Program-made: the position numbers and the translations under genes
IMG/VR virus record: IMGVR_UViG_3300047362_000988
Location: 1-41,548 of that record
Reading direction: 5' to 3' (one strand)
Origin: a virus
Length of the DNA: 41,548 bases
In this document: piece after piece, positions 2,997-24,925 of the stretch
Layout of the letters: the number at the start of each line of letters is the position of its first letter
How positions within the stretch are numbered: position 1 is the stretch's first letter
The notes under the pieces: generated by a model
The model's input: only the letters and a program-made list of their open reading frames with translations
Databases searched by the model: none
What the model was told of the DNA's origin: nothing

Positions 2997-4076
2997 TTAA
3001 ACTCGGTTAGGCTTTATTTTATATTTAAATTTACCTTGTGTAATAGAATATATTTGTAATTCGCTAGTTTTTCCAGGTAATTTCTTGTAATAGTGAAAAG
3101 CTACTATTTCATGATCTTTAGACTCTATAAAAAGGAATGGAGTAGGTATATCTCCTACTGCTGAAATTACATCGTCTTGTATTTCAGTAAATGTTCTAAC
3201 GGAAGGCTCAGTCTCTATTATACTTTTAATTTTTTCTGCAGTTTTAGAGTCACTTAGCTTTCCTAATTCTACGTCATTAAATTTAATTACTAATGCGCCG
3301 TTATCTTTATCTCCAGGACCTATTTTAAAATCTCTTTCACTAGAAGAAAGGGCCTGAATATCTGTCTTAGTTAAATTTTGAATATGCTTAAATCTTTTTC
3401 CACCTACAGTTCCCCATTCATTTATCCAACCTCCACCGGCAGCCATATCTTTACCATCTCCGTCCGGGTTGATTTCTTCAATATTATATTTTACTGCGTC
3501 ATATAATGCCGTTAACTTCGGTACATAAGTACTATTAATTCCCTGGTGTTTTGCACCTGTTCTCCAATTTTGTAACATGCCCTTTGACATTTGAGCTTCT
3601 TTTAACTCACATTTACCAAGGGGTGGTTTAATTGGTGACCACCTTTCATTATATAATTCTAAGTCAGTATCGGCCGCACCTCCACCTATTTTTATATTTT
3701 CTACAATATACGCTAGCATTATTTCTCCAGCACCAATTCCATTATCGTCTCTTCCAATATTAAACAATTCGTTTGCTTCGCTTTTATTTAACATTAAATA
3801 TTGAAAAACTACTCCGAATGTATCGTCATCCATTTTAGAAAGCCATAACCTACCATCAGGTTGTTGTTTAACATCCTGTGTTGAAGTAAACTTAACACCT
3901 TGCCATGGACACTTATTCTTTTTAAATGTTCTATTAATTGAATTAAATAAATTCTGTTGGGCAGATTTACTTCCGGTCGTTGCAACTCCAATATAGGATT
4001 CTATAATTAACGCTTCATTTTCAGCATTGGTTTTTGCAGCACTATGTAGTGCTCTTTCAAAATCGTACCTATCCAT
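2997..4076 (-). CDS. 359-aa protein with possible PD-(D/E)XK nuclease signature
   Basis: I do not recognise the family with certainty. The central part has G-I-G-A-G-E (residues 113-118), a GGG turn (131-133), D136/D138 and then E157-L158-K159. A glycine-glutamate motif, followed by an acidic residue on a strand and an E-x-K, is the arrangement of restriction-endonuclease-like (PD-(D/E)XK) active sites. It is followed by a conserved-looking KGMLQNWRTGAKHQG stretch. The C-terminal third (about 245-359) is a beta-rich domain. LIIES (24-26 reads I-x-S; I25-E26 is adjacent) near the N-terminus is only a weak match to head-processing sites. The ATG overlaps the end of the ligase-NMNAT gene (stop at 4069-4071), which implies translational coupling and a shared role in nucleic-acid processing. 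An alternative is a non-enzymatic virion protein. Confidence 0.6.
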   Translation of the reverse strand: MDRYDFERALHSAAKTNAENEALIIESYIGVATTGSKSAQQNLFNSINRTFKKNKCPWQGVKFTSTQDVKQQPDGRLWLSKMDDDTFGVVFQYLMLNKSEANELFNIGRDDNGIGAGEIMLAYIVENIKIGGGAADTDLELYNERWSPIKPPLGKCELKEAQMSKGMLQNWRTGAKHQGINSTYVPKLTALYDAVKYNIEEINPDGDGKDMAAGGGWINEWGTVGGKRFKHIQNLTKTDIQALSSSERDFKIGPGDKDNGALVIKFNDVELGKLSDSKTAEKIKSIIETEPSVRTFTEIQDDVISAVGDIPTPFLFIESKDHEIVAFHYYKKLPGKTSELQIYSITQGKFKYKIKPNRV

Positions 4077-5943
4077 TGTTTTCTAAAAATTGTTTAAATG
4101 TTAATAATGATTCAGCAACTTCATTTGATTCTGAAGTACCTACTGAATCTTCTAATTTTTTCTTAAGTTCGCCATACATTTTATGTAATGCTTTGGGTGT
4201 TGTTGACTTAAATAATCCTTCATCTCCGTCTAGCATTGCGTTTCTAACCTGAGTCGCTGAAATATTATCATCTGTTCTTGGAATTTCAAATAATCTAAAG
4301 TCGCTTCTAACTCCAAGATCTTCTCTATAAGAATCTTTATTTACTTGGAATCCGTAAGTTTTCATTCTATCACTTCCTGTTCCCCATAATACAGGTTCAT
4401 ATTTAGGTCTCATTGCATTGAACATAGTATCAATACCTCCTGTTGGAATTACAAAAATTTCTTTTAGGAATGGATATTGTTTTTGAACCGCCTTAAACAT
4501 CTTAAGTTGCGTTTTTTCATCATAAGGTCTTTTAAAAGCGTCTTCTTTTTTCTTATTCTTTGCTTTGACTAATAATACTACAACAGGATATCCATTTTCT
4601 TTGTGTATAGTTTCTAATACTTTAGCATGTCCAAGTGTAAATGGTTGGAATCTACCAACAAACATATTTACTAATTCTCCTCCTTGTTCAGGATGATCTA
4701 CCTTAAGCGCTTCATTTAAATTAACACTAGTCTTTACTTTGTTATGTAATATAAAATTGTTAAAGTCATATATTGAATTTTCGTCGGTGTTTTCAACGAA
4801 TATCTTTTTATCTATTTCTTCTACTATATTATTTAAATGCTCTATCATTTCTTTATTTAGAATATCGCTTTCTTTATTTCTCTTTTTTCTAAAAGATCCG
4901 AGCGTTATTTTAAATAATTCTGAAAGTATTTCGTTTTCCACTAAAGAAAGTGTGGTTTCGTTTTTAATGTATTTACTATTTAGTTTAAATACGCTATGGC
5001 TTGCAAAGTCGGCTGATTCAAAGTTAACTCCTATAAATTTAGTAGAATTTTCATTTACATATTTATTAAATATAACGGACATTAATTCAATGTACCTAAG
5101 ATCTGCTGTTTCTTCGTTTAGTTGAACAGAGTTCATGTCAAATGAAGAAAGATATTCGATTAGATCAGCTATAGTAATCTGATACATGTGACTAGATTCC
5201 TTAGAGTTGCTCTCGTTGTTTCTAGTAAAGTCTTCTAATTTAAAAGATTTTACTTTCTTTCCGTCTATAAATGAAATTATTAGACCATCAATCTCAACCT
5301 CAAAATCTTCATTCAATATTGGTGAAGTTTGATTTGGATTAAAAATCTTTATTATTTTCTGTGTAAATGAAGTTTTAAAATCCGTAGATCTATCATAGTC
5401 AAACGACTCTACAAATTCTTTATCTGACATAGATAAAAGATTTATTAATTCTGTTTTTTGATTTTGATTTAAAGTTCCATCAAATACTATGCTAGGTCCT
5501 TGAACTTCTAATTTTTTTGCCCATTTGTTTAAAACAGAAGGGTCATAAATAGTTTTTTTAACTTTACCTGACTCAGATAACGTTTGTATATGTGTTAATA
5601 TTAAATTATTCTTAGGAAGTTTAGTATATTTGTATTGTGATATTTCTAATTCAGGAAGATATTCAAATCCAAATTTCCAATCCGTTGGCATTTCTTCTTT
5701 AATTGAAGGATCTAAACTTTGAATATGTTTAACCCCTGTTTCGTATAGTCCTACGATAGTTCTATCTATCATATTCATACGAATATCTCCAGATTTAAAA
5801 TATTCAAACCTTTCTACGTTTCTTCTTACGTGAAAAGATGAACCTTGTATTTTTTCAGTAACTAAAATTCTATTTTTCAGAAGATCCTGAAATGCATTAA
5901 TGTTAGTTTCTTGAAATACTTGTCTTATTTTTTTAAGTGCCAT
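4069..5943 (-). CDS. Fusion of ligase-like nucleotidyltransferase and NMN adenylyltransferase-like domain
   Basis: Two catalytic domains are visible. The N-terminal half matches the covalent nucleotidyltransferase (RNA/DNA ligase) superfamily. It has motif I E-K-I-Q-G at 30-34 with K31 as the likely AMP-lysine, motif III FGFEYLPE at 91-98, motif IV EIDGLIIS at 217-224 and motif V-like KSFKLED at 232-238. A helical region (about 250-410) follows. The C-terminal part (about 425-600) is a HIGH-superfamily nucleotidyltransferase: GRFQPFTLGH at 430-439 contains the T-x-G-H signature, and ISATQVR at 561-567 is the ISSTxxR-type motif of NMN/nicotinate-nucleotide adenylyltransferases. The tail ends LLTFKQFLENNG, close to capsid-targeting peptides, and LNEAL at 409-413 lies between the domains. 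A fusion of a ligase with NAD synthesis chemistry suggests RNA or DNA end repair linked to NAD, but the substrates are unknown. Confidence 0.85.
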   Translation of the reverse strand: MALKKIRQVFQETNINAFQDLLKNRILVTEKIQGSSFHVRRNVERFEYFKSGDIRMNMIDRTIVGLYETGVKHIQSLDPSIKEEMPTDWKFGFEYLPELEISQYKYTKLPKNNLILTHIQTLSESGKVKKTIYDPSVLNKWAKKLEVQGPSIVFDGTLNQNQKTELINLLSMSDKEFVESFDYDRSTDFKTSFTQKIIKIFNPNQTSPILNEDFEVEIDGLIISFIDGKKVKSFKLEDFTRNNESNSKESSHMYQITIADLIEYLSSFDMNSVQLNEETADLRYIELMSVIFNKYVNENSTKFIGVNFESADFASHSVFKLNSKYIKNETTLSLVENEILSELFKITLGSFRKKRNKESDILNKEMIEHLNNIVEEIDKKIFVENTDENSIYDFNNFILHNKVKTSVNLNEALKVDHPEQGGELVNMFVGRFQPFTLGHAKVLETIHKENGYPVVVLLVKAKNKKKEDAFKRPYDEKTQLKMFKAVQKQYPFLKEIFVIPTGGIDTMFNAMRPKYEPVLWGTGSDRMKTYGFQVNKDSYREDLGVRSDFRLFEIPRTDDNISATQVRNAMLDGDEGLFKSTTPKALHKMYGELKKKLEDSVGTSESNEVAESLLTFKQFLENNG

Positions 5944-18311: not shown

Positions 18312-21300
18312 TTAGTAACATATTGTATTGCCGATTGACGTAGTTATCTGACCCGGGGGATACGTAGATGTACTACCCACCTCTGCACAGAAGCTTCTTT
18401 GGGCGCCGCCTGCTAAAATGAATGATTGTTGATTTCCACCTGAATCAGTGTAGCTGCCTCCGCCGCCTACATAGAGATTTAAGTTAGTGAACGTATGAGT
18501 TCTAGTTTGTACTACTGGGCACTGTTCAGGTGTTATGTTTCCTGTATATGTAAGTGAAGTACTACTGCTATTAGGATGTCGGATAGTAAACGACTGGCCG
18601 GTCAGGCCCAGAGCAATTGGGGAACAAGCCATATCTGACTCTATTGTTATAGATCCATTTCCACTTGAATCTGGTGCGTTAGGTGTAATGATTAAACTAG
18701 TATGAGGTGTTTCCACTATCGGAGTTCCCGGATTACCTGATATAGTGTAATATACTGTATCACTTCCGTTTCCTGCTCCAACATTAAAATCACTTACGCT
18801 AAAAGTAGAATTAGTGGTCGTAAGATTATAATTATATGAACCTTCGAAACCGTCATTCGGATCGAATTCATCCAACGCATTACTGTTTGATTTACCTAGT
18901 GGCTGAAAATTAGAAGGAATGGTATCACTGCCAGTACCTGAATCATCATCATAGTGTCCAAACCTTACTTTTATTTGTTGAGAAGGATCTATGCTAAGTA
19001 TATCATTGACAACATCAGGTTCTAATAAAACCGTCATTATTACTTTTTCATATCTTCTAAAATCTGTATCCTGTTGATACGGTCTCCATGAATGAACTGA
19101 ATTCCATGCCGTCATCCCATTGTTAGTTCCTAAAACATCATAATTTCCGTTTAAGGCCCATGTATAAACAACATTAGCGCCAGGTACAGTATGTTGAACA
19201 TCCTGTTCTGTCCACCAGTCTAAGGTTTCAGTATAAGTGTAAGGATCTACATACTGTACTAAGTGGCTAGAATCTATATTTAAAGATGGGTATAACGATT
19301 GTATTTCAGCAATATTAAAACTATTTACAACGGGTAATATTTGAAATGCTACTTGAGAAGTTCCACCATTACTCACAGGATCTATCAGTATTTGAAAGGG
19401 CTGTGTGTATGCTCCTTTAGAACTAGTAAGACTATCTCCGGAACTGGCTACCATTTGCGGAGGATATACATAACTGTTAGTTTCTGCATTGTAGAATGCA
19501 TGTCCAGTTGTATTACCCTGAGCATCGCTAGTTATACTGCGATGATATGCGCCTTGTTTTTCGGTAGGGCACATATCGTCTTGACCTGGAAGATCATTTA
19601 CCCATGCACCATGATTAGAAGGTGCTAGATTATAAAGAGAGGAAGAATCGTCAGATGCGTCTGGTAAGCTATAAAAATACTTCTGTGTGGTATTATTAAA
19701 CTTAGACCATGAAGATTGAACTCGTGCATTATATGGATTAAAACTACCATCTGTGGGAAGCCCTTGCATTTGATCTTCATTAAATGAATTTAATCCCTTC
19801 GCTAAAGTATACCAACGTCCGCCGTAATGGAACACATCTCCCTGGCTGTATGTTGTTGCAGTGTTATAATTTCCTTTATCATTCCATGTACCTATACCAA
19901 CTCCACTAGCTAAATTACTACTATCTGGATATAGTCTTTCATTCCAATTAACAAACCAACTATATGCACCCGTATTGCTATTAGTATTGTTTAAACCTCC
20001 GCCTCCCGGTTCTCCTGTATATGGTTTAGCCGCTACTTCAATGCGCATTAAGGCAGGTTTATTGGGTTCTAGGCCTATGCTATTAGGGTTTATAAACGTA
20101 CCTGTAGGGCTAGGAGATATTTTAAAGGATTCAACAGCTGTTCTTAGAGTGCCTAAATCAGCAATTCCTGAAGGAGCTGACTCGCCTGTAATAAATTTAG
20201 CATTGGTTATAAATTGTATATTAACAGGTGGAGGAGCAGTTACATTATAATATAAATCTGCTACCCCTAAATATATTAATTGAGGATTTTTATAAAGTTT
20301 ATACTCCGTGTTATTTTCGTCATTACTAGTTTCTAACCAAATGTCAGTAGTGTCTGTATCGAGCGTAGTACTTATATTATTATTAGAACTTGTCATAGAT
20401 AATTCACCACCTCCTAAAATATTAGGTATTTCGCTATTTTGTGGAGAAACTATATAGTCAGCGTTAGTCGCTACATTAAACTGAAATGAATTTAAATTAG
20501 GTACAGTATATGATACAGTACCATTTGTCCACGTTTGTCCATTACACAAATACCATCCTTCGTAGTCTGTTCCTGCAATTCCTCTCCCTACTGTTATCTG
20601 AATTAATGTAGGGTCAACTGACATATCAGATATTGTTTGAGACTGTTCAAAATTAGAAGAGCTTTCATACACCTCATCTAAAAATGAGACTATAGTACCT
20701 ATTGGTATACCTGCTCCTATTTCTCCCGGAGTTTTAAAACCGATAGTTCCATCTGAATCTAAAGCTACTGCTATTTTACCATCGACAGGATCATTTGGAG
20801 TAGGGTTAGAAGGATCAGCCGTATTGATTCTGAATATACTTCCTACGAATTCAGCTGAACTAGAAGCCACTAGAGTGCCTGTAAATAAAACTCCATTAGC
20901 ATAGTCAATCGACATCATTTCATTTCCAGATAAATCACTAACTTTAAATTTATCAGCTGAATAATTAAATTCTCCGGTGCCTCCTGCAGAGTTAAACTTA
21001 AATTCTATAGTACTAGTAGATGTATCTGAATCAGTTTCTAGATTAATATCTAAATATTGATCGTAATTTTTTTCAGAAAATAACCTAATATTTGAAAATG
21101 AATAATTAGAGTTTTTGTTAATGTTTAAAACTCCTCCTAAATTACTTAAGCTTATATTTTCGTTATATTCTGGATCGTTAGAAGCAAATCCTATAAGTAC
21201 TGATGTGGGGGGATTATCCTGGGGTGTACCTTCGCTATTAATAGGCGTAATGGTTTTTATATTAAGATTTCCATTTGCCCATGTACTAGCGTCTTTCCAT

Positions 21301-21533
21301 TGCGAATTAGTACTTGTATCTGCAGGTCCTTGGGTTCCTTGTGGTCCTTGGGTTCCTTGTGCACCTTGATCTCCAGTAACACCCTGTGCACCGGTTTCGC
21401 CAATTGAACCAGTAGCACCCATAGGTCCTCCTCCATTAGCAATAAGCTGATCAAAGTTATAATTGATTTTATCTAGTTTCTCTTGCTGAGTATCTGACTG
21501 TAAAATCTGCTTTAAATTAATAGGTATTGGCAT
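18312..21533 (-). CDS. Collagen-like tail fibre or adhesin (1073 aa)
   Basis: The N-terminus has the KINYNFDQL motif (22-30), followed by 12 uninterrupted G-x-y triplets (36-71), a collagen-like rod. Residues about 275-360 contain GWYLCNGQTW and a TVPNLNSF sequence, the hallmark of a phage tail-collar domain. The long C-terminal part is Ser/Asn/Thr/Gly-rich, aromatic and likely receptor-binding, with a GGGG-S-Y segment and two nearby cysteines close to the end. It is a paralogue of the next fibre upstream (1110 aa) in the N-terminal third but lacks its Hint domain. It follows an AGATATATAA element by 23 bases and precedes the coiled-coil protein by 4 bases. It probably recognises host surface sugars or proteins. 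Confidence 0.85.
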   Translation of the reverse strand: MPIPINLKQILQSDTQQEKLDKINYNFDQLIANGGGPMGATGSIGETGAQGVTGDQGAQGTQGPQGTQGPADTSTNSQWKDASTWANGNLNIKTITPINSEGTPQDNPPTSVLIGFASNDPEYNENISLSNLGGVLNINKNSNYSFSNIRLFSEKNYDQYLDINLETDSDTSTSTIEFKFNSAGGTGEFNYSADKFKVSDLSGNEMMSIDYANGVLFTGTLVASSSAEFVGSIFRINTADPSNPTPNDPVDGKIAVALDSDGTIGFKTPGEIGAGIPIGTIVSFLDEVYESSSNFEQSQTISDMSVDPTLIQITVGRGIAGTDYEGWYLCNGQTWTNGTVSYTVPNLNSFQFNVATNADYIVSPQNSEIPNILGGGELSMTSSNNNISTTLDTDTTDIWLETSNDENNTEYKLYKNPQLIYLGVADLYYNVTAPPPVNIQFITNAKFITGESAPSGIADLGTLRTAVESFKISPSPTGTFINPNSIGLEPNKPALMRIEVAAKPYTGEPGGGGLNNTNSNTGAYSWFVNWNERLYPDSSNLASGVGIGTWNDKGNYNTATTYSQGDVFHYGGRWYTLAKGLNSFNEDQMQGLPTDGSFNPYNARVQSSWSKFNNTTQKYFYSLPDASDDSSSLYNLAPSNHGAWVNDLPGQDDMCPTEKQGAYHRSITSDAQGNTTGHAFYNAETNSYVYPPQMVASSGDSLTSSKGAYTQPFQILIDPVSNGGTSQVAFQILPVVNSFNIAEIQSLYPSLNIDSSHLVQYVDPYTYTETLDWWTEQDVQHTVPGANVVYTWALNGNYDVLGTNNGMTAWNSVHSWRPYQQDTDFRRYEKVIMTVLLEPDVVNDILSIDPSQQIKVRFGHYDDDSGTGSDTIPSNFQPLGKSNSNALDEFDPNDGFEGSYNYNLTTTNSTFSVSDFNVGAGNGSDTVYYTISGNPGTPIVETPHTSLIITPNAPDSSGNGSITIESDMACSPIALGLTGQSFTIRHPNSSSTSLTYTGNITPEQCPVVQTRTHTFTNLNLYVGGGGSYTDSGGNQQSFILAGGAQRSFCAEVGSTSTYPPGQITTSIGNTICY

Positions 21534-21592: not shown

Positions 21593-24500
21593 TTAGTTAT
21601 ATTTCTGTTCTTGTTCCTGATTATGACAAAGCACACCATCAGCTATATAAACATCATCTGCTTCAACATCTATACTATAAGTATTAGATGTCTTTTTTAC
21701 ATATTCATTACTGAAAACCTTAGTCCATTTTTCATTTACATATATAAATTCTCCTAAAGATATTTTACCAGCCTGCTTAAATTGAATTATATTATTGTGT
21801 TTTACCAAAACAGGGTGTTCACTCGTTATTTTAGTTAGACCTTTATTAATATCCATATATGATATATGTGTTCCTTTTACTATGTTTACAACTGTAACTG
21901 TTGAGGCTTCTTTAATTAGTTTATTTACCTTAAAATTTCTCCATTCTCCACTTTCTCTTAATCCACCTATTTTATATGAAGATAAGCTGTCTCCTATTTG
22001 TAAGTTTTCAACTTTTTTAAATTTACCGTTTGACATAGTTATTAATGTTCCTTCTACGTGACATGGTCCCCAGTTAAATTGAATAGAGGTAGTACCGGTC
22101 TGTGACATCTGATAGTTAATATTTGTAAGACTAAGGGTAACATCGCGATTTATTCCGTTATTTGTATTTGATGTCAAATTAACATTTACCGTTTCATTAC
22201 TATTATCTACACTGCCTATACTACCCGAAACTCCTGTAGGTAGATTAGTTAAACTAAAATTAGATGTACTCAAACCAGGCCCATCCCACTCAAATTCTGC
22301 AACGACGGTACCGTTACCGACGCCAAATTCTGGATTAATATCTGTGAAGTTAAACACATAGCCGGAGCCGAATCCGGAGCCTCCACTACAATCTGATAAA
22401 GTAGGAGCCATAGAATTAGAATTAATTTCTCTATATTCTGAAGAAAGTGAATCAGCGATAACTATGTTTGGTTGCTCCCCTATTATAGGACCGTCTTTTA
22501 CTAGGACTAGAGGGTGTTTTCCCGTGTCAGCTAGGGAGGTTGTACCAGACGAATGAGATGCATCTCCTCTTACGTATATTTGATCTGTAATAAAGTTAAA
22601 ATTTATAGCAGAAAAATTAGAAAAAGGTAAACTAACTGCATTTCCTGCAAGTGTACCATGGGCGTCTCTAGCATAGAATGTTAATGAATTTGTTCCTGAT
22701 GTATCACATGCTGCACTACTTGAATTTGCACCACTAGCTAGGTGCCATGTCCTATTGTAAGGAATATAATTATCTTTAATCGTAGCGCCTTTAAATTCGT
22801 TGTCTGAATTATTCCAATATTTTCTATAAGTCAATTGATAACCGGCAGGTATGGATATATTATAACTACCTGTAAAGGCATCTGTATATGTAACGCTTCT
22901 CCACCATCCAGTTGTAGGAATTACAATCTGATTAGAAGAATTAACTGACCATATATGAGAATTTGACTCATAATCTGTAAAATCAGGATCGTTAGTGTTT
23001 GAATTTTGACTATTAGCGGTAGGATTTCCTTGAAAATCACTAGACACATGCATTTCAACAAAAACAGGATTATTACTATTTTGTATGGTTGCTAGAGAAA
23101 CGGGTTCATTATTATATGTTGTTTGAAAAATATCAACTGAATTTCCGTCAACATCCCATAGACCTTCTCCATACCACATCCAACTCTGTTGGGGTTCGAA
23201 CACATGTTTTAAACCTGTGAATCCTGTGCCATTTTCATAATATCTTGCTATTCCGCCAGGTACTGCCGAATGTTCTCTAAAAAACCATCCGTCATCAACT
23301 TCAATTCCATTTTCATAAACTCTAATACCTGTCGAAGATGAAGGATTGCTAGTTCCATCGGTTGTAAAAGAAGCGTCACTTAGCCAAAAGGTATCTATTG
23401 AAGTACCTCCGCTTATATCAGCAGTCCACTGTCGCGTTACAGGATTAAGAGAAGCTGCATATCTTGCTGAAATATCAAAACCATCTTGATCAGGGGAATC
23501 GACATATTCATGGTACCCTGCTGAAAAGTCTGTTGTTTCAGCTGTAGAATCTAAATTACCCCATTCATATCCATAACTGCCTAAAAAAATAATACTAACA
23601 TGTTCTCCAAATACGATATGCTTTTCATCTCCGGAATTATTTTGAATATTGCCCGGGTATCTTCCGCTTTGAGACCCTGATTGATGAGACTGTGTAATAA
23701 CACCTGTGCTAGTATCGGTTGAAAGAGAAGTTTCAGATCCTCCATATATGCTTTTTCCGGGATTAGACGTAGATGACACTCCCAATGTATAATGAAATCC
23801 ATTTAAATTAGGGGTATCATATGATATAATTCCGCCATCTCCCCATTTTCTACCATTACATAAATACCATGCGCCAAACATTCCATCTGGCCTACCTGCT
23901 CCAAAGTTCGTTCTAATGTTAGTCGTTCCACCTGTACTTAAATCTGTAACAGTTGCATTATCGGTATAAAAATTAGAAGAATTAAAAGAAGTAGAAGGTA
24001 TTTTAACAATAGATCCTATAGGTAACACTGAAAATAAACTTGAAACATTTTCCCAAGTAACAGTTCCTATATTATCATTTGATTTTAATACATTATTTAA
24101 ATTAGCTTGGTGATTAAATTTTAAGCCTCCTACTACAAATTCTACTTTTTTACCAGGTTGAGTTGCATCTACGTATAAAGGATAATTTATTACAGAGTTT
24201 TCACCTAAAGTATTAATATTTCCAAAATTAGAAATAAAATTAAAATTAATATTCCTTTGAAAGTCTATTTCATATCTATAACCGGAACTGGCGTCGTTGG
24301 GCTTTATTTCGAAAACAGAATTAGCCACTGTTCCAAGAATTGGATCAGACACATTATTTATTCCAAAATTAAAATAGTGAGAACTGTCGTCACTATCTAA
24401 TGAAAAAGATGATGCTGAAGAGTACCATCCCTGTGATGGAATAGAAGCCGCTCCATTTGTTAAAACATTAAAGGCTCCATTGCCAGCAAGGTTTATAGGG

Positions 24501-24925
24501 GTTGTTGCAGTTGTTCCATACCATGGACTTAGATAATCTCCATTGGCGTCTAAGTTAGAATTGGTACCGATTACGGGAATAGCCATACCTGCAACTCCGA
24601 TTTGAACAGATGGCCAAATTACCTTTTGATAATAATTATTTCCATTTTCATCAACGCCGTTAAGTATTGTGCTTTTCCAGCTTCCAACAGCCGAAGGACC
24701 TACAATTCCTTGAAAACCAAATGGACCTTGATTTCCTTCAGTTCCCGTTTCACCCTTATCCCCTTCAACTCCATTAGGACCTTCTAATCCAGATGGACCC
24801 AATGGACCTCCATTTCTAAGAAGGTTAAAATTAAAATTTATTTTATCAATTTTATCCTTTGACCACCATTCATTGCTGTTAGGATCTAGATCACTCTTAA
24901 AAAGTTCTTTGATTCTTATGTTCAT
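21593..24925 (-). CDS. Collagen-like tail fibre with C-terminal intein-like Hint domain (1110 aa)
   Basis: The N-terminal KINFNFNLL motif (28-36) is followed by 13 G-x-y triplets (40-78). A tail-collar segment with GAWYLCNGRKWGDGG and DTPNLNGFHY comes next, then a long adhesin-like region. Residues 955-1102 (nt 22063-21620) form a Hint domain. Cys955 starts CHVEGTLITMSNGKFKKVE, with the block-A pattern ending in LQIGDSL. TSEHPV (1034-1039) is block B with the conserved Thr and His. The domain ends in ADDVYIADGVLCHN, the block F/G sequence with His1101-Asn1102. Only eight residues follow, beginning with Gln, so full protein splicing is not expected. N-terminal cleavage or a cross-link at Cys955 is. 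The gene ends 59 bases before its paralogue. Confidence 0.85.
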   Translation of the reverse strand: MNIRIKELFKSDLDPNSNEWWSKDKIDKINFNFNLLRNGGPLGPSGLEGPNGVEGDKGETGTEGNQGPFGFQGIVGPSAVGSWKSTILNGVDENGNNYYQKVIWPSVQIGVAGMAIPVIGTNSNLDANGDYLSPWYGTTATTPINLAGNGAFNVLTNGAASIPSQGWYSSASSFSLDSDDSSHYFNFGINNVSDPILGTVANSVFEIKPNDASSGYRYEIDFQRNINFNFISNFGNINTLGENSVINYPLYVDATQPGKKVEFVVGGLKFNHQANLNNVLKSNDNIGTVTWENVSSLFSVLPIGSIVKIPSTSFNSSNFYTDNATVTDLSTGGTTNIRTNFGAGRPDGMFGAWYLCNGRKWGDGGIISYDTPNLNGFHYTLGVSSTSNPGKSIYGGSETSLSTDTSTGVITQSHQSGSQSGRYPGNIQNNSGDEKHIVFGEHVSIIFLGSYGYEWGNLDSTAETTDFSAGYHEYVDSPDQDGFDISARYAASLNPVTRQWTADISGGTSIDTFWLSDASFTTDGTSNPSSSTGIRVYENGIEVDDGWFFREHSAVPGGIARYYENGTGFTGLKHVFEPQQSWMWYGEGLWDVDGNSVDIFQTTYNNEPVSLATIQNSNNPVFVEMHVSSDFQGNPTANSQNSNTNDPDFTDYESNSHIWSVNSSNQIVIPTTGWWRSVTYTDAFTGSYNISIPAGYQLTYRKYWNNSDNEFKGATIKDNYIPYNRTWHLASGANSSSAACDTSGTNSLTFYARDAHGTLAGNAVSLPFSNFSAINFNFITDQIYVRGDASHSSGTTSLADTGKHPLVLVKDGPIIGEQPNIVIADSLSSEYREINSNSMAPTLSDCSGGSGFGSGYVFNFTDINPEFGVGNGTVVAEFEWDGPGLSTSNFSLTNLPTGVSGSIGSVDNSNETVNVNLTSNTNNGINRDVTLSLTNINYQMSQTGTTSIQFNWGPCHVEGTLITMSNGKFKKVENLQIGDSLSSYKIGGLRESGEWRNFKVNKLIKEASTVTVVNIVKGTHISYMDINKGLTKITSEHPVLVKHNNIIQFKQAGKISLGEFIYVNEKWTKVFSNEYVKKTSNTYSIDVEADDVYIADGVLCHNQEQEQKYN

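Follow-up and report, generated by a model that had tools for sequence, protein, structure and literature searches.

A BIL-like Hint domain at the end of a phage fibre, with a conserved lysine in its short tail

Which host a phage infects is determined by its fibres, whose maturation is understood in only a few cases. The window, a viral stretch of 41.5 kb (IMG/VR record IMGVR_UViG_3300047362_000988, positions 1 to 41,548), encodes an 1110-aa protein in which a collagen-like stretch (residues 40-77) and an extended fibre body precede the C-terminal Hint domain (Table 1). Genes in the neighbourhood of the fibre gene encode homologues of baseplate wedge proteins, further large proteins and a T4-like replication set (gp32-type SSB, primase, helicase, UvsY), and the replication and baseplate wedge neighbours therefore most likely assign it to a T4-like myovirus. 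The adjoining fibre gene (18312-21533) resembles the Hint fibre in its N-terminus, collagen-like stretch and collar-like region while the Hint domain is absent, and a search of the window record found no second Hint domain. The viral relative L015 repeats the gene order of Hint fibre, similarly sized large protein and ~270-aa protein. Elsewhere in the window, positions 4069-5943 encode a 624-aa protein with a C-terminal cytidylyltransferase-like domain, possibly a nicotinamide-nucleotide adenylyltransferase. Four features go beyond the initial annotation of the fibre end, i.e. Pro at position -1, a family-wide lysine tail, a hypervariable upstream module and the adjoining Hint-less paralogue.

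Table 1. Features of the Hint fibre gene and its neighbour (window positions).
Feature	Position	Strand	Evidence
Fibre protein with C-terminal Hint domain, 1110 aa	21593..24925	-	ORF; profile matches to collagen-like and tail-fibre proteins; baseplate wedge genes lie upstream
Collagen-like Gly-X-Y stretch near N-terminus, residues 40-77	24695..24808	-	Pfam Collagen E 7.8e-4; PHROG tail-fibre matches; sequence
Beta-rich module directly before Hint, residues 856-954, last residues Trp-Gly-Pro954	22064..22360	-	AlphaFold beta strands; hypervariable between relatives
Hint domain, A-type BIL-like, residues 955-1102 (148 aa)	21620..22063	-	Profile, tblastn, alignment, AlphaFold/Foldseek
Cys955, block A nucleophile, position 1	22061..22063	-	Shared by all complete relatives in the first set
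Block B Thr1034-Ser-Glu-His1037 (TxxH, within TSEHPV)	21815..21826	-	Thr and His invariant in 33-row alignment
Thr1034 codon	21824..21826	-	
His1037 codon	21815..21817	-	
Asp1091, block F	21653..21655	-	Invariant in 33-row alignment
His1101-Asn1102, block G, Asn cyclisation site	21620..21625	-	Invariant in 33-row alignment and 54 tabulated sequences
C-terminal tail QEQEQKYN, residues 1103-1110, then stop	21596..21619	-	Sequence; pLDDT ~39
Lys1108, proposed acyl acceptor	21602..21604	-	Tail lysine in 32/34 independent clusters
Neighbouring collagen-like fibre without Hint, 1073 aa (internal comparison)	18312..21533	-	ORF, profile matches

Fold and active site of the fibre end

The initial annotation had placed a complete Hint domain at 21620-22063, and these limits hold exactly, from Cys955 to Asn1102. 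PHROG, tblastn and AlphaFold/Foldseek show that the resemblance is no coincidence. In a profile search, PHROG 38766 (virion structural protein) matched residues 954-1104 (E 1.2e-11). By tblastn, the 156-aa end of the protein matched 67 phage records, mostly across the whole domain and at 25-30% identity; they include tail or structural proteins of phage NCTB and of jumbo phages of Erwinia, Dickeya and Yersinia, as well as helicases of Vibrio and Lactobacillus phages, in which the match is a true intein. An AlphaFold model built with 33 sequences reached a pLDDT of ~90-98 over most of the domain and ~39 at the last residues. Foldseek matched this model to BIL and intein structures with E 1e-7 to 1e-9 and TM by target length 0.76-0.81; for Tetrahymena BIL2 (6y75/6tmm), Clostridium BIL (2lwy) and the Ssp DnaB and gp41-1 inteins, E is 5e-9 to 3e-6 and TM 0.77-0.81. 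A nine-sequence profile likewise found Tetrahymena BIL2 (E 4e-9) and CthBIL (E 3e-6) as its best PDB matches. The best matches in BFVD are phage fibre-like proteins, some of which carry the name ‘Hint domain containing protein’. With Pfam, the Hint domain stayed below the cut-off for the window sequence alone and the PF07591 search of the record was negative at the family level; the domain is too divergent for this cut-off, not absent. Intein_splicing (Pfam) matched 23 of 33 relatives at E<=0.01. Weak profile matches to AXH, DNA polymerase II and radical-SAM were put down to cross-matching, either with the Hint fold or with inteins that these models contain. We are nearly certain that the domain is a real Hint domain of the BIL type.

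The blocks A, B and G called by the initial annotation, i.e. Cys955, TSEHPV (Thr1034/His1037) and His1101-Asn1102, could all be located and are conserved. In an alignment of 33 rows, most of them 25-45% identical to the window domain, only six columns are invariant (Cys1, Thr and His of block B, Asp of block F, His and Asn), and these are the intein catalytic residues. Cys1 and His-Asn are present in all 54 distinct complete domains from the first two viral contig scans (in three rows with an offset tblastn start, the Cys was read by eye), and the search patterns of the first scan contained neither of the two motifs. Loss of Cys955 or of the block-B His had been named as evidence against a working Hint domain, and both residues turned out to be conserved. 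More distant relatives carry Ser instead of Thr in block B in a few cases and other residues in place of the block-F Asp. The C-terminal position and the lack of Cys, Ser or Thr at +1 were also read correctly, as His1101-Asn1102 is followed by only eight residues (QEQEQKYN) starting with Gln1103; the +1 residue is not conserved in the family.

Different parts of the fibre are constrained to different degrees. L014 carries the identical protein; in the comparison with L012, identity is 86-100% for most of the fibre, ~90% in the Hint domain and only ~20% at residues 901-950, with a dS of 1.0 in the module before Hint versus 0.09 in the rest (~ten times). Against L015 and L029, the Hint domain is 52-68% identical and better conserved than almost everything except the first 50 residues; dS between L015 and L029 amounts to 0.37 in Hint, 1.06 in the body and 1.58 in the upstream module. 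The dN/dS of the Hint domain is 0.33-0.38 in window pairs and 0.08 for L015/L029. Given its low identity and high dS, the module before Hint, the fibre's most variable part, is either exchanged, as if by recombination, or fast-diverging, and the Hint domain may also act as a recombination anchor.

A family of phage fibre ends and its tail lysine

IMG/VR was scanned twice for relatives and, after a prediction on tail lysines had been recorded, three more times. The scans yielded >50 distinct relatives, nearly all at the protein end and carried by phage proteins of the fibre, tail and baseplate that are not otherwise related. N-terminal partners vary from collagen-like fibres, Ig- or lectin-like stalks and Pro-Thr-rich stalks to a tail-tip protein and, in the later scans, a baseplate-hub domain (L233). 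Most relatives are joined by a poly-Gly linker (Gly at -1 in 35/54), and Pro at -1 occurs in all five sequences of the window clade, to which it is restricted among the 54. His-Asn is followed by 3-22 residues in 51 of 54 complete domains, and in the other three (L150, L152, L158) by a ~240-aa region with a Laminin-G-like lectin domain and Lys at +1. In L187, the Hint domain precedes PKDELSKAPEGR and a peptidase S74 chaperone (Pfam E 2.3e-8), and S74-like sequence was seen by eye after Hint in L224, so that each of these two proteins has two self-processing modules in tandem. Four viral proteins (L221, L229, L230, L234) contain at least two tandem Hint-like domains, often joined by His-Asn-Lys-Gly-Cys or similar. 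Stand-alone Hint-like proteins, possibly partner proteins, are encoded right after the Hint fibre in L010 (15698-16159, NCTB BN7874_135) and L067 (5480-5941), with Cys1 and the block-B His lost and His-Asn kept.

A scan of bacterial genomes with the family alignment returned no relative by tblastn and therefore provides no host or prophage link. C-terminal intein domains are already named in some GenBank phage records. In the open-access literature, we found no functional study of Hint domains in phage fibres; the searches led to inteins in terminase and ribonucleotide reductase. The main text of a virion mass spectrometry paper on other Erwinia jumbo phages (Eneladusvirus) does not mention inteins. 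The BIL/Hint class is already known; judged by the literature covered, novelty lies in the tail lysine and in the analysis of conservation. The fibre end belongs to a widespread family of phage fibre ends that is apparently undescribed.

The tails of the relatives comprise 1-31 aa after His-Asn and contain lysine far more often than expected. In the first set, clustered at 60% identity, 21 of 22 clusters had a tail lysine compared to 11.9 expected from the C-termini of other ORFs at the same loci (p=5e-5, approximate like all p-values here because clusters share ancestry). The prediction recorded thereafter was borne out in new clusters at 50% identity, where lysine was present in 15 of 16 tails against an expectation of 7.2 from other ORF C-termini (p<5e-5) or 10.1 when tail residues were shuffled among tails (p=3e-4). 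Altogether, 32 of 34 independent clusters carry it (about 16 expected), including L299, the tail of which has a second HN inside and was read by eye as LKDPDG.... Simple charge can be ruled out as the reason, since arginine is not enriched but lies below expectation (5.9 vs 11.8 in 34 clusters), and so can Shine-Dalgarno coding, with an SD-like string in only 6 of 33 tails. Minimal tails consist of K alone (L226, L232, L250) or KV (L222), and the exceptions are L153 (QLHQHDYN) and L227 (RCDVDAGGDCQ, Cys at +2). Within the window clade, tails are strongly diverged and lysine is kept at +5 to +7. In L187, self-cleavage of S74 would again leave a short lysine tail after Hint. Two domains (L289, L290) end with HQ or RQ without any tail, i.e. 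Asn and the lysine-bearing tail are missing together. A residue that is conserved as lysine but flexible in its position, within a disordered tail and beside a conserved thioester-forming active site, is what one would expect of an amine acceptor; some other amine-specific role could also account for the lysine.

Self-processing of the fibre and competing explanations

We consider it likely that the Hint domain self-processes the fibre, the function that had been suggested by the initial annotation and that gains support from the conserved catalytic set. The accompanying statement that Hint domains without a +1 nucleophile usually cleave or form thioester-linked products is consistent with published A-type BIL domains, which give mostly cleaved products (PMC7664689, PMC7765530). 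In our best reading, to which we assign a probability of roughly 0.45, an A-type-BIL-like Hint domain would process the fibre with Lys1108 as the probable acyl acceptor; the acceptor role of the tail lysine, taken by itself, is tentative. The fold, the catalytic conservation and the tail lysine statistics are direct results, whereas the chemistry, including the sequence of its steps and the end product, is inferred. The fibre would fold and trimerise, and Cys955 would attack the Pro954-Cys955 bond, as suggested by the Hint active site, so that the hypervariable module would terminate in a thioester. The amine of Lys1108, in the same or a neighbouring chain, might then take over the thioester to form an isopeptide bond, a step proposed from the family-wide lysine conservation and the BIL2 precedent, before cyclisation of Asn1102 would cut Hint from the tail, in line with the conserved His-Asn. 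The fibre would thereby lose Hint from its end, with the lysine tail serving as a cap or as a cross-link. We favour lysine as the acceptor because a lysine-specific, flexible tail adjoins a conserved thioester-forming site and because BIL2 joins a substrate C-terminus to a lysine epsilon-amine by an isopeptide bond (PMC8616854). The combined loss of Asn, tail and lysine in L289/L290 was counted in favour of this reading, while the lysine-free tails of L153 and L227 and the not obvious benefit of a branched 8-residue fibre end were counted against it. The strongest objection for the window protein is Pro954. Pro at -1 hinders N-terminal cleavage in intein expression systems, and thioester formation may therefore be slowed or prevented in the window protein, even should it proceed in relatives with Gly linkers.

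Should Pro954 block the thioester step entirely, Asn1102 would only remove the tail peptide and Hint would stay as a part of the tip. Pro at -1 in all five clade sequences, beside a hypervariable module and instead of the Gly of most other relatives, would fit such clipping, but Cys955 and the block-B TxxH, residues of the N-terminal step, are kept in the window clade under purifying selection, which makes it improbable. Alternatively, hydrolysis of the Cys955 thioester and Asn1102 cyclisation might simply remove Hint from the finished fibre in a maturation or release step, with an outcome comparable to peptidase S74 chaperone domains and an incidental or indirect role of lysine. The invariant catalytic set, the C-terminal position in fibre and tail proteins and the mostly cleaved products of A-type BIL domains (PMC7664689, PMC7765530) all agree with this. 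We nevertheless find it less likely, as it leaves the lysine-specific, position-flexible tail unexplained and as the S74 chaperone co-occurring in L187 shows that Hint is no simple substitute for S74.

The initial annotation had further proposed that the fibre could be attached to host surface groups, i.e. that its thioester is passed to host amines and the phage becomes covalently bound. The position in a fibre and the conjugation of substrate to other proteins by BIL2 (PMC8616854) would be compatible with such adhesion, which is nonetheless very unlikely: the fibre's own tail lysine would compete, and relatives include baseplate-hub and tail-tip-like proteins. Nothing favours host attachment above a link within the fibre; the lysine kept in the short tail instead suggests that the fibre supplies its own acceptor, in cis or on a neighbouring subunit. 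A functionless intein relic at the end of the fibre gene, as the missing +1 nucleophile and the 148-aa sequence without a homing endonuclease domain might suggest, seems hardly credible in view of catalytic residues that are invariant at 25-45% identity, low dN/dS and a C-terminal placement that recurs in unrelated proteins.

It is conceivable, at somewhat long odds, that many phages possess a built-in, ATP-independent ligation at fibre and tail ends, where the Hint thioester would be joined to the short-tail lysine in cis or between subunits, resulting in isopeptide-capped or stapled tips. A large family with a full intein active site and a near-constant tail lysine makes chemical self-modification of fibres a specific, testable claim. 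If true, these domains would provide short ligation modules of natural origin that bring their own acceptor, which bears on the old question of the purpose of BIL domains.

Relation to known Hint systems

The domain has the fold of the Hint superfamily with blocks A, B, F and G (AlphaFold/Foldseek, alignments) and the sequence marks of A-type BIL domains, i.e. Cys1, TxxH, His-Asn, no +1 nucleophile and a variable host protein. An intein is ruled out by Gln at +1 with only eight residues following; an intein at a conserved site of a conserved protein by the variable fibre end and the absence from the neighbouring fibre paralogue. Hedgehog (Hog) Hint domains, which lack His-Asn and have a sterol-recognition region, do not agree with the His-Asn and the 8-residue tail found here. 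The pretoxin HINT domain (PT-HINT) of polymorphic toxins also resides near the C-terminus of long filamentous surface proteins but precedes a toxin domain, while here only a short tail follows; it was ruled out, with no PT-HINT match in the record. Peptidase S74, an intramolecular chaperone of tail spikes and fibres, is likewise a C-terminal self-processing domain, but its fold and Ser/Lys chemistry are unrelated, and it was rejected as the window fibre has no Pfam S74 match.

The closest phage counterparts, the Hint/intein tail proteins of NCTB and of Erwinia, Dickeya and Yersinia jumbo phages (PHROG 38766), contain the same domain at 26-31% identity and share the position at a collagen-like fibre end and the short lysine tail, but have Gly instead of Pro at -1. 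With A-type BIL domains (Amitai 2003; Dassa 2004; CthBIL 2lwy), the window domain has in common the Hint fold, Cys1, TxxH, the C-terminal His-Asn without a +1 nucleophile, and the location in variable, non-housekeeping proteins, here a fibre with a hypervariable module. Its distinguishing marks are the terminal or near-terminal place in phage fibre and tail proteins, the short tail with its lysine, a conserved Trp/aromatic insertion that separates block A from block B and, in the window clade, Pro at -1. The best solved relative by both profile and fold is Tetrahymena BIL2 from the BUBL1 polyubiquitin locus (6y75, 6tmm), which lies between two ubiquitin-like domains in a eukaryote, whereas the C-terminal partner of the phage Hint domain is a short tail and its isopeptide activity is putative.
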